From positions 17,651-81,650 of the forward strand of contig NZ_BLZO01000013.1 of NCBI RefSeq assembly GCF_014132355.1: a stretch of 64,000 nt of DNA, read 5' to 3'. Origin of the DNA: Okeania sp. KiyG1 (GTDB lineage Bacteria; Cyanobacteriota; Cyanobacteriia; Cyanobacteriales; Microcoleaceae). How positions within the stretch are numbered: the stretch's first letter is position 1; the number at the start of each line of letters is the position of its first letter. This document shows positions 10,693 through 15,663 of this stretch, in pieces. The notes below the pieces were generated by a model. It saw only the letters and a list, made by a program, of their open reading frames with translations. It searched no databases and was not told the DNA's origin. A program made the translations under genes and the position numbers.

Positions 10693-11143
10693 CTATATTT
10701 GTGTTTGAGCCAGAATTAACTGCAACTAGCCAGCAATAACTTTTTTAGGCCAGAGTTAATTGCAAATAGTCTAAAACTTTTGTAGCATCTACATTTCCCA
10801 ACAAAGGAATTGTTGGTGTGGTAAATTAACTCGTCATTAATCACAATACTTTTACTTTGAAAGATTTACGGCTTTCTTAACTTGAAAAAGCCGATTTTCT
10901 CGTTGACTCAGGTATATGAACCAGGAGTAAAAAAACGTTCGTTTTCTTTACACGTCTAGTTGCAGTTAATTCTGGCTCAAAAAAGTTATTGCTGTCTGGT
11001 TGCATTTAATTCTGGCTCAGTTGCAGTTAATTCTGGCTCAGTTGCAGTTAATTCTGGCTCAAACGTTAATCTAGTTGCAATTAATCCTGGCTCAAAAAGT
11101 TCGTTATTGCTGGTCCGGGGCTTTCTTATTGCTGGTCGCTACA
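10624..11143. mobile_element. Gene-less mini-element with Tn7-like ends (TGT...ACA)
   Basis: The two ends are about 70-bp near-perfect inverted repeats starting TGTAGCGACCAGCAAT. Inside each, two short sites (GACCAGCAAT) are followed by long sites close to GAGCCAGAATTAACTGCAAC: three on the left (10674, 10707, 10747) and five on the right (10959, 10999, 11020, 11041, 11074, inverted). TGT...ACA termini plus asymmetric arrays of ~20-bp sites are the hallmark of Tn7/Tn5053/Mu-type transposons, where TnsB-like transposases bind. The 190-bp centre has no gene, so this is a non-autonomous (MITE-like) derivative. I see no clear 5-bp target duplication. Confidence 0.7.
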
Positions 11144-11461: not shown

Positions 11462-11721
11462 GGTAGTGGGTTAAATAAGTGTGGAATAAATAGATAATGG
11501 GCGTTACCGAAATCATAATTGTTTTTCAAAAAATAATGCTTTTTTAATTCTAGCAAAACTCTGTAGAGGACACATACATAGTACCTAGCTATATGCTGGA
11601 TAACCTGTTACGATAAAACTTTTTATTATAACATTTTTTTGAATATATACTCACATCTTGCACCAACAAAAGTTGATATGAAGAACAATAACTGAAATAC
11701 TTATCTGATCGGAGGTGGGAG

Positions 11722-11750
11722 TTAGTTATCTCTTCTCAATAGAGAACTAT
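11722..11750. promoter_or_regulatory. IS-B palindrome near left end
   Basis: The half-site TTAGTTATCT, a 9-bp spacer, then AGAGAACTAT. The right half is identical to that of the 12223-12251 palindrome; the left half matches 8 of 10 bases at the same spacing. It lies about 75 bp inside the left terminus, beyond the 3' end of the accessory gene. A protein-binding site is inferred. Confidence 0.55.
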
Positions 11751-11787
11751 AATGAAGAAGTAATAAAAACCAGAGGGTAAATTAATC

Positions 11788-12189
11788 TTACTCTACCCGA
11801 TGACCTGCTTTTTCTTCATCGGGATATAAATCTAACCAACTTTCATAAAGTGCTTCGATAGCTGAAGTTAATTGCTCAATTTTACCTCTTCTAATCACAG
11901 CATTCACTCCATCTATATGTGCTTGACTTCCTGCTTTTCCTAAATGTTTAAAACGCGAAAATTCCCCTTTTTTATTACTTTTTGGGAAAACAGATCTAGA
12001 CCCTTTGAGTTGATAATACCAATAATGATATTTTTGCCCTTTGGCTTGATACCGTGCTACATAACAATCAGCAGGAGCAACCCATCCTGAAGCTTCAATT
12101 TCTGATTTTTCACGTTTTAAAGCAGCTATAGCTTCTCTAATACGGTCTGCTCGCTCTGCTATTTCTAGATTACTGTTGATTTTAGCCAT
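11788..12189 (-). CDS. IS-B accessory protein
   Basis: I start at ATG 12189 (MAKINSNLEIAERADRIREAI), giving 133 residues; a further upstream frame to 12261 overlaps the transposase start and reads as spacer. The protein has an N-terminal helix, then PADCYVARYQAKGQKYHYWYYQLKG, then FKHLGKAGSQAHIDGVNAVIRR and an acidic end. The same order (a Tyr/Trp-rich strand, LGKAGS-AHID-V, a helical tail) occurs in the accessory protein of IS-A, so they are homologues on two different transposons. A DNA-binding or regulatory role is inferred from the basic helix, the divergent arrangement and the palindrome between the genes. Confidence 0.65.
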   Translation of the reverse strand: MAKINSNLEIAERADRIREAIAALKREKSEIEASGWVAPADCYVARYQAKGQKYHYWYYQLKGSRSVFPKSNKKGEFSRFKHLGKAGSQAHIDGVNAVIRRGKIEQLTSAIEALYESWLDLYPDEEKAGHRVE

Positions 12190-12222
12190 TTTTTGAGCTT
12201 TTTGATTATGGAATATGTTATT

Positions 12223-12251
12223 ATAGTTCTCTATTTTAAACAGAGAACTAT
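12223..12251. promoter_or_regulatory. IS-B operator-like palindrome over the transposase start
   Basis: Perfect 10-bp arms ATAGTTCTCT / AGAGAACTAT are separated by 9 bp. The right arm ends on the ATG (12250-12252) of the transposase, and the left arm lies about 34 bp from the accessory start. Binding here could shut off both promoters; an mRNA hairpin hiding the start codon is an alternative. Confidence 0.6.
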
Positions 12252-13373
12252 GTTGCCTCACCCCATTTTATCCCAAGTTGACGAATTACTCTGCTCTTTA
12301 AAAGAATTAATGCCCACAATTTATCAAAAGAAACTCTAGAATCTGTTTTAGGCTTGTTTCTACATAGTCAAGGAAATGCTGTTCCTCATCATTGTCAAAC
12401 CAAATCAGAAAGTGCTATTAGTCGCTTCTTAAATCATTATAATTGGTCAACTCGTTCTCTGATACGCACTGTTCGTTCTTTCATTCTCAACTTAGTTTTA
12501 TCTGAAAGAATAAAAGGACGAAAACTCATTTTACAAGTTATTCTAGATTTAACAACTCTTGAAAAAGTAGGGAAGTTTGTTCATCTAAAAGAATTAGTTA
12601 GAGTTTATAATCATAAAAAAGGTTTACACATCGTTGTTCTTTACTTAGTTATAGGTAATTGGCGATTTCCTTGGAGTTTTCGTGTATATAGAGGCAAAGG
12701 AACCTCATCACCTTCTCAACTGGCTTTAAAATTACTGAATACATTGCCTTCTATTTTGACAAAATCTTTCCCAATTTATGTTTTAGGAGATACAGCCTTT
12801 GGGACAATTAAATTCATTGAAAAACTCCGTGACAGTTCTTTTAATCATCATGGAATTCTTGGCATCCCTAATACCAGAAAATTAACTGATGGACGTAAAG
12901 TGTCTGAACTAAAAACTCGTGGACAACAAGTTTATCTAAACGGCTTAAATTTTCCTGTCTTCTTATCATGGGTTTGGCTAAAACGAGATGGAAAAAGAGT
13001 TAAGCGATTTGTTATTTCAACTAAACCTATGAAGGGAAAAACTATCGTCCGTTGGGGAAAACGTAGATGGCAGATTGAAGGTTTCTTTAAAACGGCCAAA
13101 CATCAATTTAGTCTCCATCGTTTTGGACAAAAAACTTTATTAGGGGTTTATCGTTGGTTAATTCTTTCTCTCGTCTCTTATTTATTAGCTTATTGGATTT
13201 ATTTACATAATGGTTATTTTGATGATTTAGATTGGTATGATTCAGCCGAAAAAGCCTTAGTTTTGCTCTTACCTCAGATTTTACTCCTTTCCCTTATCAA
13301 AAAATTAAAGTTACTAAATCCTTGGTTTTATAAACACGGTTTGGAACTTTGTCTTGTCAGGTGCAAGATGTGA
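12250..13373 (+). CDS. IS-B DDE transposase (IS4-like), one frame break
   Basis: Translation from ATG 12250 gives about 29 codons (MLPHPILSQVDELLCSLKEL...) before a stop; the second frame carries on from there, open to 13373 (ESVLGLFLHSQGNAVPHHC...). One missing A near 12335 (AAGAAACTC) joins them, and 1124+1 nt is then exactly 375 codons. Catalytic features: VILDLTTL (first Asp), VLGDTAFG (second Asp), and WGKRRWQIEGFFKTAK with the YREK-like Glu. This fits the IS4-type DDE fold. The C-terminus is hydrophobic and ends inside the right terminal repeat. Confidence 0.7.
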
Positions 13374-13460
13374 GTATATCTAAATTAGTCATTAAAAGCC
13401 ATTTTGTGGCCTTGATAAAATGTGTTAAATGTTTAATTGGACTTTGGACAAAAAGAAAAC

Positions 13461-13485
13461 AGTTAGCGTAATATTTACGCTAACT
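13461..13485. promoter_or_regulatory. IS-A palindrome, left end
   Basis: The arms AGTTAGCGTAA / TTACGCTAACT (11 bp, perfect) surround TAT, 24 bp inside the element. A second perfect palindrome AGAGAAATATTTCTCT follows at 13491-13506. Relatives of the first lie at the divergent promoter (15034) and the right end (15568). Confidence 0.6.
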
Positions 13486-13563
13486 ATATTAGAGAAATAT
13501 TTCTCTGTCTCCAGTGAATTTAATCACTGAAAAATGGCAATAATTAAGAGTTGTCGCCCACTA

Positions 13564-15009
13564 CTAAGAAACTTTTCGTTGTTTTTTGGATTTTTTTTTG
13601 CCTTTGATGATAACTTGATGACGAGTTCGTGGTGTTGTTTTATATCCTTTAATCCGTCCGGTAGAATAACCTCGACGTTTAGGAGATGTCGTCATTGTAC
13701 CCAAAGTCGAAATTATTCGATAAAAATCTCTTTGAACTAAACTGGGAGTGATTTTAACTGATTTATTAGTCTTCAAATAATGTTCCCAAGGACGGGGTAA
13801 AACAATGGCTAAATTCCTAGCAGCCCATAAATTAACATAAGCAATTAATGTTAATTTGAACCAATTTTCTTCATGTTCAACATCAGGGGTTGAATAAGCT
13901 GTCATTAATAATCTTTGTTTACCAAATCGGAACAGATGTTCTATGTCATAACGTTGCCGATAAGATTCATAGCAATCAATCAAACTTAACTCTTGACGTC
14001 GAGAACCAATAACAATTAACCACATCGGTTTCCCAATCTGATTACCTACTTCATCAGTAATATTAATTTGTAGTAAAGTAAAAGGATAACGATTCATTTT
14101 ATAGTTCTGAGTTCCTTTCATTAACATCTGGTTCCAACCCGAAATTGTTACTGTCAATTGACGACCTTTTCTAGTAGTAAAAATGGATTGACTAACCTCC
14201 GTAGGTTCATGCCAAGTATTCTCATCTTTCAGGTCAAATTTATCTCCATACCAACGGGGATGTCCTGAAGTAATTGCTTGGTGTTCTTTCCTGATAAATT
14301 GACGGTAAAAGACTCGATTGCTTCTCACTCGTGTCACGGTAATTAAGTTTTTATGCTTGACTTGTTCTCCAATAAAATTTCTTTGGCTGTAGAAACTGTC
14401 AGCAACTAAAACTGATAACTTCTCTCCAGAGAAAGAAGCAGTTTTAAAGATTTTTTCCAGTTGTTTATTACCAATGTTAGTAGCCTTTTCTGACGAGGGA
14501 ACCCTTTCTCCTAATAAGGGAACAGCCCAAGGTACATTACCTGTTGCTATTCTCTCTGGTAAAGCGCATATAACTGAATAATAATGGCCAATACTAATGG
14601 GTTTATTTCCTTTAATTGGATTGGGATAATTGATAAAAGTTTTGTCGGCCAATGTAGCTGAAAAAGGACGTGGACAAGGAGTTGTATCAATTCCAAATAA
14701 ATGAAAATGTCGGGAAACTGGAGTAGGAATTGTTTGAGACGCAGCCTCTAATAAGTAATTAACTTGTTGTGAGTAATTATCATCATTTTTATCAGGTAAA
14801 AATTCTTGAATTCCTTTATATAAACTGTTATAATTTCGTCGAAATAAAGGATGTTCAGACAATTCTACTACCGAACTTGCGATGGAGTTTGATGAAAGGG
14901 CATCTACTAATTCTATAATAGTTTCAATTCTTGCATTAACTCCATGATAAAGGTTTTGCCTCCAGGATAAGAACTCCTTGATTGATTGACTGTTTTCTTG
15001 ATTTTCCAT
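13564..15009 (-). CDS. IS-A transposase (DDE, NF041680-like)
   Basis: A 481-residue protein starting MENQENSQSIKEFLSWRQNL. Motifs: FGIDTTPCPR (Asp), VLVADSFYSQR (Asp), YRQRYDIEHLFRFGKQRLL (Glu region), and a very basic tail (KGKKKSKKQRKVS). I recognise the type as a large cyanobacterial IS4/IS701-like transposase. It is intact, unlike most other transposases here, and an identical copy lies at 61953-63398. Its start faces the accessory gene across 76 bp that include an operator-like palindrome. Confidence 0.85.
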   Translation of the reverse strand: MENQENSQSIKEFLSWRQNLYHGVNARIETIIELVDALSSNSIASSVVELSEHPLFRRNYNSLYKGIQEFLPDKNDDNYSQQVNYLLEAASQTIPTPVSRHFHLFGIDTTPCPRPFSATLADKTFINYPNPIKGNKPISIGHYYSVICALPERIATGNVPWAVPLLGERVPSSEKATNIGNKQLEKIFKTASFSGEKLSVLVADSFYSQRNFIGEQVKHKNLITVTRVRSNRVFYRQFIRKEHQAITSGHPRWYGDKFDLKDENTWHEPTEVSQSIFTTRKGRQLTVTISGWNQMLMKGTQNYKMNRYPFTLLQINITDEVGNQIGKPMWLIVIGSRRQELSLIDCYESYRQRYDIEHLFRFGKQRLLMTAYSTPDVEHEENWFKLTLIAYVNLWAARNLAIVLPRPWEHYLKTNKSVKITPSLVQRDFYRIISTLGTMTTSPKRRGYSTGRIKGYKTTPRTRHQVIIKGKKKSKKQRKVS

Positions 15010-15033
15010 GGTTGTGAATAATACACCTCTGAA

Positions 15034-15058
15034 TGTTAGTGTATATTTTACGCCAACA
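15034..15058. promoter_or_regulatory. IS-A palindrome in divergent promoter
   Basis: TGTTAGTGTA / TACGCCAACA form an imperfect dyad (8 of 10 matches) sharing the TTAGTGTA/TACGC core with the palindromes at both ends of IS-A. It lies between the transposase start (15009) and the accessory start (15086). Confidence 0.5.
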
Positions 15059-15085
15059 TAAATCCTTTCTTAACTATTCAGTCTC

Positions 15086-15513
15086 ATGTCTACACCGAAA
15101 TCCAAGCAAACCACTCAACCTGCAGCCATTAGAGGGAAACAAATTCAGGGTTTAATCCGTCAGATGAAGCAGAAAATTAAGAAAATTGAACGAGAAGGAG
15201 AGGTGATTCCTCGTGAAGTTCATATCATCCGTTATCAAGTCAATAGAAATCAGAAACTTTACTATTATTATAAATTACAATCTGCTTCACCGATTTTTCC
15301 TATGGCTACTGATAGTCAGAAAAAACTAAATATAAATATTTAGGCAAAGCGGGTAGTGAAGCTCATATTGATGCAGTTGAAAAAATGAGTCGAAGGAATC
15401 TTATTGATGAGTTGGAGAGAGTTGTTCATTCCCTTCAAGAAAGTTATTTAGATATTTGTTTTGGTGGAGAAATTGAACCAGACCCATCCTATGATCTTCG
15501 GGATGATAAATAA
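15086..15513 (+). CDS. IS-A accessory protein, frame broken at an A6 tract
   Basis: The first frame gives 85 residues (MSTPKSKQTTQPAAIRGKQ ... YYYYKLQSASPIFP) and stops at 15343. Adding one A to the A6 tract at about 15320-15325 restores YLGKAGSEAHIDAVEKM and runs to TAA 15513; 428+1 nt is then exactly 143 codons. The restored protein is homologous to the IS-B accessory protein (LGKAGS-AHID-V and the Tyr-rich strand). Both IS-A copies have the same A6, so the break is a property of the element rather than one random error. Whether the full-length form is made by slippage is unknown. Confidence 0.65.
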
Positions 15514-15567
15514 TGTCAAAAACAAAGATAATTCCAGTATGAATTCGGTCTTTAAACCTTAATTTTG

Positions 15568-15596
15568 GTAGTTAGTGTAACTATTACGCTAACTAC
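15568..15596. promoter_or_regulatory. IS-A palindrome, right end
   Basis: The arms GTAGTTAGTGTAA / TTACGCTAACTAC have 13 positions with one mismatch around CTA, 21 bp inside the right terminus. It mirrors the left-end palindrome. Confidence 0.6.
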
Positions 15597-15663
15597 TTTT
15601 TTTTGTCCAAAGTCCAAGTTTAATTTTTGTTGTTCTAATTGAGTAAATGGAAAACTTTTTAAT

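Follow-up and report, generated by a model that had tools for sequence, protein, structure and literature searches.

A small accessory gene and a predicted palindromic operator shared by eight transposon families of cyanobacteria

Introduction

Self-regulation of insertion sequences (IS), where it is known, is usually built into the transposase gene, and the InsA protein of IS1 binds the terminal repeats of its element. We studied a window of 64,000 nucleotides from the genome of Okeania sp. KiyG1 (contig NZ_BLZO01000013.1, positions 17,651 to 81,650), in which two neighbouring insertion sequences, named IS-A and IS-B here, each carry a small gene besides the transposase gene. We call it the accessory gene. 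A preliminary description, made from the letters of the window, had proposed that its product is an element-encoded DNA-binding factor which represses the transposase or helps to assemble the ends, and that each element has a palindrome of its own.

The accessory protein is similar to InsA of Escherichia coli IS1 in being a small element-encoded protein; according to the available part of PMC12428005, InsA represses the promoter of its own element, and P-IS1 together with InsA forms an autorepression system. A predicted site occupies a comparable place, upstream of the accessory gene, in 49 of 64 loci; IS-A and IS-B have it in the space that separates their divergent genes. The genes insA and insB overlap, and insA is part of the transposase reading system (in part after the same text of PMC12428005). 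In contrast, the accessory gene is separate, has a predicted operator of its own and accompanies eight transposase families.

Insertion sequences with passenger genes are termed tIS. IstB of IS21 and TnpB of IS66 are second element-encoded proteins, as is the accessory protein, which unlike them has no Pfam match above any cutoff. Toxin-antitoxin modules recruited by Tn3-family transposons are portable and are thought to co-regulate the transposase, whereas the accessory gene encodes a single protein with no sign of a toxin partner, and its predicted operators are found also at the ends. Among passenger genes, transposons of the ISAzba1 group encode a pRiA4_Orf3-like protein, an extra gene within the element as in the present case, but the available part of that paper (PMC3942029) reports neither cognate palindromes at ends and promoter nor sharing among unrelated families. 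Host transcriptional regulators are frequent IS neighbours in the accessible text of PMC9208149, which is a different relation. In the open-licence literature we recognised no description of a regulator common to unrelated IS families with cognate sites. The present system would belong to element-encoded transposition control, already known in kind, and its protein family could not be assigned to a known one.

Results

Transposon partners of the accessory gene

A transposase of one of eight families lies within about 2 kb of the accessory gene in 54 of 65 non-redundant loci, while ten loci have none and one has a doubtful IS630. This goes against the refuting condition set beforehand, that homologues would be mostly unlinked to transposases. 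The 65 loci (13 from named records) were selected at below about 90% identity from 98 with a near-full accessory open reading frame (ORF), out of 112 loci in total (34 from named records). Transposases were labelled by tblastn matches (E ≤ 1e-4) in an interval reaching 2.4 kb ahead of the gene and 1.7 kb beyond it; some of the matches were to fragments, and five labels were corrected by hand (L196, L085, L214, L220 and L168); L196, labelled IS1182 at first, is IS701-like by its divergent ORF. Family names came from NCBIfam and Pfam searches with representatives, in which the IS701-like label is below the NCBIfam cutoff and DUF6399 has no transposase model. ISKra4 was found in 18 loci, IS701-like and DUF6399 in nine each, NF041680 in six, Tn5-like IS4 in four, IS1182 and ISH3 in three each and IS4 in two. 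IS630 as a ninth carrier was rejected: the IS630 of L220 is nested in an ISKra4 element (GGGAGCATCCC ends), and L168 was not counted because it has no bracketing repeats.

The accessory gene is the non-transposase gene within multicopy elements bounded by terminal inverted repeats (TIRs). Multicopy units with both accessory gene and transposase were found for IS4, IS-A, IS-B, DUF6399, ISKra4 and Tn5-like elements, the ISKra4 and Tn5-like units being present in several copies, and four DUF6399 copies in one genome (G472) all have 8-bp flanking duplications.

A tree of 66 accessory rows (the 65 loci with L130 added), in which 37 of 63 inner branches are starred, needs nine family changes to place the eight families on its 55 labelled rows, so the partnerships are stable and swaps are rare. 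NF041680 (not starred), IS701-like, IS1182 and ISH3 each make up one side of a branch, and ISKra4, DUF6399 and Tn5-like are not each confined to one side; this grouping treated the rows that lack a transposase as a further group and was made before two of the label corrections, neither of which applies to the count of nine. The accessory module has spread between transposon families, as had been supposed from two elements.

DUF6399 (PF19936) is the large partner of the accessory gene in inverted-repeat elements of about 2.5 kb (L198:3753-6257, L265, L266 and L267 in G472; L173, L165, L176 and L194). Its conserved motifs ADETFF, SDRA and EGRNG suggest a DDE transposase family which is not labelled as such. 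An IS4 derivative of about 1.05 kb (L124:2734-3782) retains both inverted repeats and the accessory gene with only the start of the transposase, and is possibly a non-autonomous carrier of the gene.

Tolypothrix PCC 7712 and 7601 differ by a 1,393-base IS701 with a 'hypothetical protein' and by a chromosomal 1,917-base ISKra4 with a hypothetical protein, according to the accessible part of PMC9679502. For the 1,393-base difference, no gene of accessory size is annotated there in a gene table that is incomplete.

Distribution

The accessory family was found in 10 of 62 genomes sampled at the level of the taxonomic family, in 83 of 389 at order level (E ≤ 1e-12), in 48 of 388 at class level with distant stand-alone homologues counted in, and in 21 of 386 in a phylum draw which overlaps the other samples. 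A contig scan of 84,980 prokaryote species, which used two peptide patterns and finds close relatives only, gave 34 accessory loci, all titled as cyanobacterium. In PLSDB, 36 plasmid records matched and every listed organism is a cyanobacterium; the gene is labelled 'hypothetical protein' there or has no annotation.

Distant homologues (L057-L077 and L126, 22 loci) are ORFs of about 120-240 aa or larger, and some of them (L058, L059) adjoin tyrosine-recombinase-like ORFs. Their best operator scores, and those of the stand-alone L086 and L178, are 13-17 and not clearly above chance, and as far as examined the stand-alone homologues showed no transposase linkage. The distant homologues are possibly the ancestor or a host branch of the family.

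Accessory protein

The accessory proteins of IS-A and IS-B are homologous, with 31% identity and LGKAGS-AHID-V in both (an intact IS-A copy was used in the alignment), which agrees with the shared family noticed earlier. The best Pfam E values were 0.048-0.15 for four full-length proteins, and two IS-A pieces gave none, all below the cutoffs. NCBIfam gave at best E 0.0011 (17.8 bits against a cutoff of 754) for the IS-B protein and the IS-A pieces, and PHROGs 0.12 or worse for three proteins. It is a previously unnamed family without convincing match in these three collections, and a search of viral contigs found no relatives. REP/RAYT and Y1 transposases are defined by a HUH motif and a catalytic Tyr; this identity was rejected because, judged by eye, a 7-sequence alignment has one invariant His and a 23-sequence alignment none.

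The AlphaFold model (mean predicted local distance difference test score, pLDDT, 90.3) has a helix, three strands and a helix. It was built without Met, so residue numbers there are one lower. Fold searches with the model gave no confident PDB match, and the protein may still have a known DNA-binding fold. A sequence search of solved structures gave a best E of 0.006, then 0.49 and worse, mostly on helical stretches. The structure prediction proposed as a check gave a helix-sheet-helix protein with its specificity residue on a predicted beta-strand, and no confident relative among the known structures.

Shared operator

The palindromes of IS-A and IS-B are not separate devices as first thought, but versions of one operator, with register and spacing common to each other and to six further transposon families. 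The predicted operator has 27 bp and fixed geometry: counted from its odd centre, the half-site TTCGCG occupies -10 to -5; the variants are TTAGCG in IS-A and TTCTCT in IS-B. Palindrome and register scans gave the same operator in all eight families (T-10 T-9 C/A-8 G/T-7 C-6 G/T-5). The upstream site is centred at a median of 39 nt before the predicted ATG and the downstream site 27 nt after the stop. The operator and the TIRs are different sequences, the latter varying from family to family, and the accessory gene is likewise separate from the transposase.

At a threshold of 18, the operator is present downstream of the accessory gene in 54 of 65 loci, upstream in 42 and on both sides in 38, against 1 of 279 control windows taken from the same loci at 1.9-2.7 kb beyond the accessory stop. 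The palindrome is also conserved when each family is scored with a matrix made from the others: 49 of 64 upstream and 55 of 65 downstream windows score above 99% of dinucleotide shuffles, a level that chance would reach in about 1%. A lack of palindrome conservation, the second refuting condition examined, was thus not observed. The weakest families were IS701-like (7/9 upstream, 5/9 downstream; its variant is TTCTCT) and Tn5-like (3/4 and 2/4), and rows without transposase gave 5/10 upstream.

In six families the operator is also present close to the terminus at both transposon ends, about equally far in. A downstream site and a far site together were found in 45 loci, of which 34, counting copies, are bracketed by inverted repeats beyond the two sites; the other 11 gave no inverted repeat. 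Within the 34, the site-to-end distances at the two ends agree to within 5 bp in 29 and are 11-14 bp apart in five. This near equality partly follows from terminal similarity reaching the site, and the set includes one locus (L116) paired with a neighbouring end.

Covariation of protein residue and operator base

Residue 82 lies on the third strand, just ahead of LGK. It is His in 49 of 49 rows with C at -8 and Tyr in 12 of 12 rows with A, and it is the only one of 128 accessory alignment columns that separates these rows (61 of 66 rows have a callable site). The Tyr rows fall into the IS-A clade and a second clade of ISKra4/Tn5-like elements, and thus represent two events and not twelve. Further loci were held out from the 65 and were not blind, several having been seen earlier as partial loci: 38 loci less nine near-copies and five repeats left 24, and 14 of these have a best site scoring at least 17. 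All 14 agree, 12 with His and C in both halves and two with Tyr and A in both halves; in one of the further loci (L247) a second, equal-scoring site reads G/A. The IS701-like sites, with T at -7 and -5, accompany Lys60Gln, Gln62Lys (or Arg) and Tyr80Phe, as one event. At base -11 (G/A) the covariation is imperfect, with a best column overlap of 0.14.

Because residue 82 and base -8 co-vary, it is strongly suggested by the sequences that the accessory protein binds DNA, in line with the DNA-binding factor first proposed. Residues 60/62 and 80/82 alternate on two beta-strands of the predicted structure, and given this alternation one face of the sheet may read DNA.

Sites across the genome and relatives without the accessory gene

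In the 11-Mb genome that contains the window (G000), the IS-A pattern TTAGYGTA-N5-TACRCTAA was found at 23 places and its reversed control at none. As read from coordinates, 18 are both ends of nine copies, three are at remnants (C27, C59 and C134) and two (C64 and C82) are an IS-A end holding an inserted IS-B copy; the promoter site differs from the pattern at one position and is missed. The exact IS-B operator has six occurrences, one in each copy, and the reversed pattern none. Since these matches are confined to element copies and remnants, there is no sign of host targets for either pattern.

Some NF041680 elements have no detectable accessory gene and no clear promoter site: two copies in G251 (L277/L284), one in G608 (L276) and one in G534 (L279). 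All three genomes carry intact accessory genes elsewhere, whose specificity matches the end sites in G251 (His/C) and G534 (Tyr/A) and not clearly in G608. As the end sites are retained without the gene, they are not tied to the gene in cis. This suggests that the protein acts in trans, or else that something else uses the end sites; the four elements are possibly trans-users of the control protein.

IS-B and IS-A in the window

The features of the two elements are listed in Table 1, and the palindromes are where they had been described. The elements are 57 bp apart and their terminal repeats are unrelated. Their transposases are clearly different, as stated before: that of IS-A matches NCBIfam NF041680 (E 1e-152, above cutoff) and that of IS-B is closest to IS701 models (E 6.5e-17, below cutoff), though DDE_Tnp_1 is matched by both. 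The core of the IS-B terminal repeat, ACTCACATCTTGCACC, is common to other IS-B copies, and GTTTAA on both sides of IS-A is an apparent target duplication.

Table 1. Coordinates of IS-B and IS-A features, as positions of the window.
Feature	Position	Strand	Description
IS-B	11645-13379		IS701-like element; 20-bp perfect terminal inverted repeats 11645-11664 / 13360-13379
IS-B operator O2	11723-11749		TTCTCT-type palindrome; 91 nt from left end; 3' of accessory stop
IS-B accessory gene	11788-12189	-	about 133 aa; His at specificity position; intact in 6/6 genomic copies
IS-B operator O1	12224-12250		divergent promoter; extends to transposase ATG (12250)
IS-B transposase	12250-13373	+	DDE_Tnp_1, nearest IS701; frame-broken in window, near start
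IS-A	13437-15617		NF041680-family element; inverted repeat 13437-13457 / 15597-15617, one mismatch; TIR TTGGACTTTGGACAAAA
IS-A operator O3	13460-13486		36 nt inside transposase-side end
IS-A transposase	13564-15009	-	NF041680; 9 uninterrupted, 100%-identical genomic copies
IS-A operator O1	15033-15059		divergent promoter; centre 40 nt 5' of accessory ATG
IS-A accessory gene	15086-15513	+	142 aa in intact copies; Tyr at specificity position; frame-broken in window
IS-A operator O2	15569-15595		35 nt inside accessory-side end; T-run next; possibly also a terminator, given the T-run

IS-A has nine full genomic copies, with the accessory gene intact in three and frame-broken in six (the window's included), all scoring alike. 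The IS-B transposase is frame-broken in five of six copies, again with the window's included, and intact in one (G000:C152, L005). The breaks of both genes are at or near A-runs, as also in L002 and L006, and the break of the IS-A accessory gene in the window is at such a run; slippage, decay or assembly error are possible causes. At two contig ends (G000:C64:1722-1790, L003; G000:C82:154400-154480, L004) an IS-B copy is inserted, in identical manner, in the transposase-side end of an IS-A, unlike the arrangement in the window with its 57 bp between the elements. To the left of IS-B, at 11000-11095, there are four near-identical 21-nt units of the TTGCAGTTAATTCTGGCTCAG type.

Discussion

One protein family, one operator geometry, recurring site positions and the covariation of residue 82 with base -8 are common to elements whose transposases differ. 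From these we infer repression, end assembly or both as the role of the accessory protein, and we favour, with a probability of roughly 0.6, a beta-sheet DNA-binding protein that represses its own promoter and often that of the transposase, and also occupies the ends. The accessory gene would encode a small DNA-binding protein, whose beta-sheet between two long helices would read the 27-bp palindrome, probably as a homodimer. When bound at the promoter palindrome it would repress the accessory gene, and the transposase too where the genes are divergent; when bound at the end palindromes it would occlude or organise the transposon ends. As the protein accumulates, transposition would be held down, and this restraint could act also in trans, on relatives with end sites only. 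A protein that reads an operator separate from the terminal repeats would be compatible with any transposase, and the gene with its operators has been re-used by at least eight transposon families. Autorepression fits with the upstream site being centred at a median of 39 nt before the ATG.

Several observations weigh against this. The covariation comes from two independent events, and two pairs are too few for a tree-aware sign test to become significant. Even when the threshold is lowered to 16, both sites are present in 46 of 65 loci and neither in four (L086, L185, L211 and L213), and 10 of the 24 further loci have no clear operator site. In IS-B and ISH3 the clear sites are confined to the surroundings of the accessory gene, and the transposase-side end has none. 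In ISH3, Tn5-like and most ISKra4 elements the transposase has the same direction as the accessory gene, and for these it does not follow that the transposase is controlled from the promoter site. The NF041680 relatives without accessory gene retain palindromes 35-38 nt inside both ends (weaker in L279, with scores 17 and 15). And fold searches found no confident DNA-binding relative of the protein.

The main competitor, with the same anatomy, is a positive cofactor: an architectural factor which pairs the ends through the subterminal palindromes and is required for transposition, the promoter site setting its own level. The similar site distances inside both ends in six families would fit with it, as would the offset of 11-14 bp in five rows, close to one turn of the helix, and the relatives which retain end sites without a clear promoter site in three genomes that encode an intact accessory gene elsewhere. 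But the transposase-side end is without a clear site in IS-B and ISH3, and six IS-A copies with broken accessory gene have intact transposases, which means that supply in cis is not needed, with supply in trans by the three intact copies possible. We consider a required cofactor unlikely, and the autorepressor that also sits on the ends is preferred.

Intrinsic terminators or insulators against read-through, with another role for the protein, would explain why sites follow gene ends and why the IS-A end sites precede T-runs; five T within 16 nt are found at 14 of 58 downstream sites on the gene strand against 4 of 58 on the other strand. However, 44 of the 58 downstream sites have no such T-run, the far-end sites have it in 1/34 and 5/34 on the two strands, the promoter sites are in the same register, and hairpin function does not predict that base -8 varies with a protein residue. 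As a full explanation this is very improbable, and terminator function may add to the control in IS-A, where T-runs follow.

If the transposases themselves read the end palindromes and the accessory proteins took up the same sites secondarily, end sites in elements without the accessory gene would be expected. Several unrelated transposase families would then need one recognition sequence, however, and the motif follows the accessory clade: within NF041680, for example, His goes with TTCGCG (L191, L103) and Tyr with TTAGCG. There is little chance that this is the origin of the sites. Least probable of all is a mobile cassette of gene and flanking operators inserting into transposons, for which the operators on both sides of the gene (the 46 of 65 loci above) and copies without intact transposase (L123, L124) could speak, but no catalytic motif was seen, and on the side of operator 2 both L123 and L124 stop at the inverted repeat of IS4, which L124 has at its two ends, so that they look like IS4 remnants.

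Beyond the autorepressor, a wider scheme is conceivable, which we hold tentatively: a private network indifferent to the transposase, with a code of one residue and one base, read at the promoter and both ends and acting in trans on elements without the accessory gene, so that different families would restrain or help each other. The pattern of partners suggests a plug-in control device passed among transposons. Control appears here as a detachable component that eight families have taken up, with a simple recognition code. It makes testable both the self-limitation of transposons and the cross-talk among unrelated elements in one genome. The accessory gene would also serve as a marker in IS annotation, where it is now 'hypothetical protein' or unannotated in annotated plasmid records, and the family may offer compact orthogonal repressor and operator pairs for cyanobacteria.

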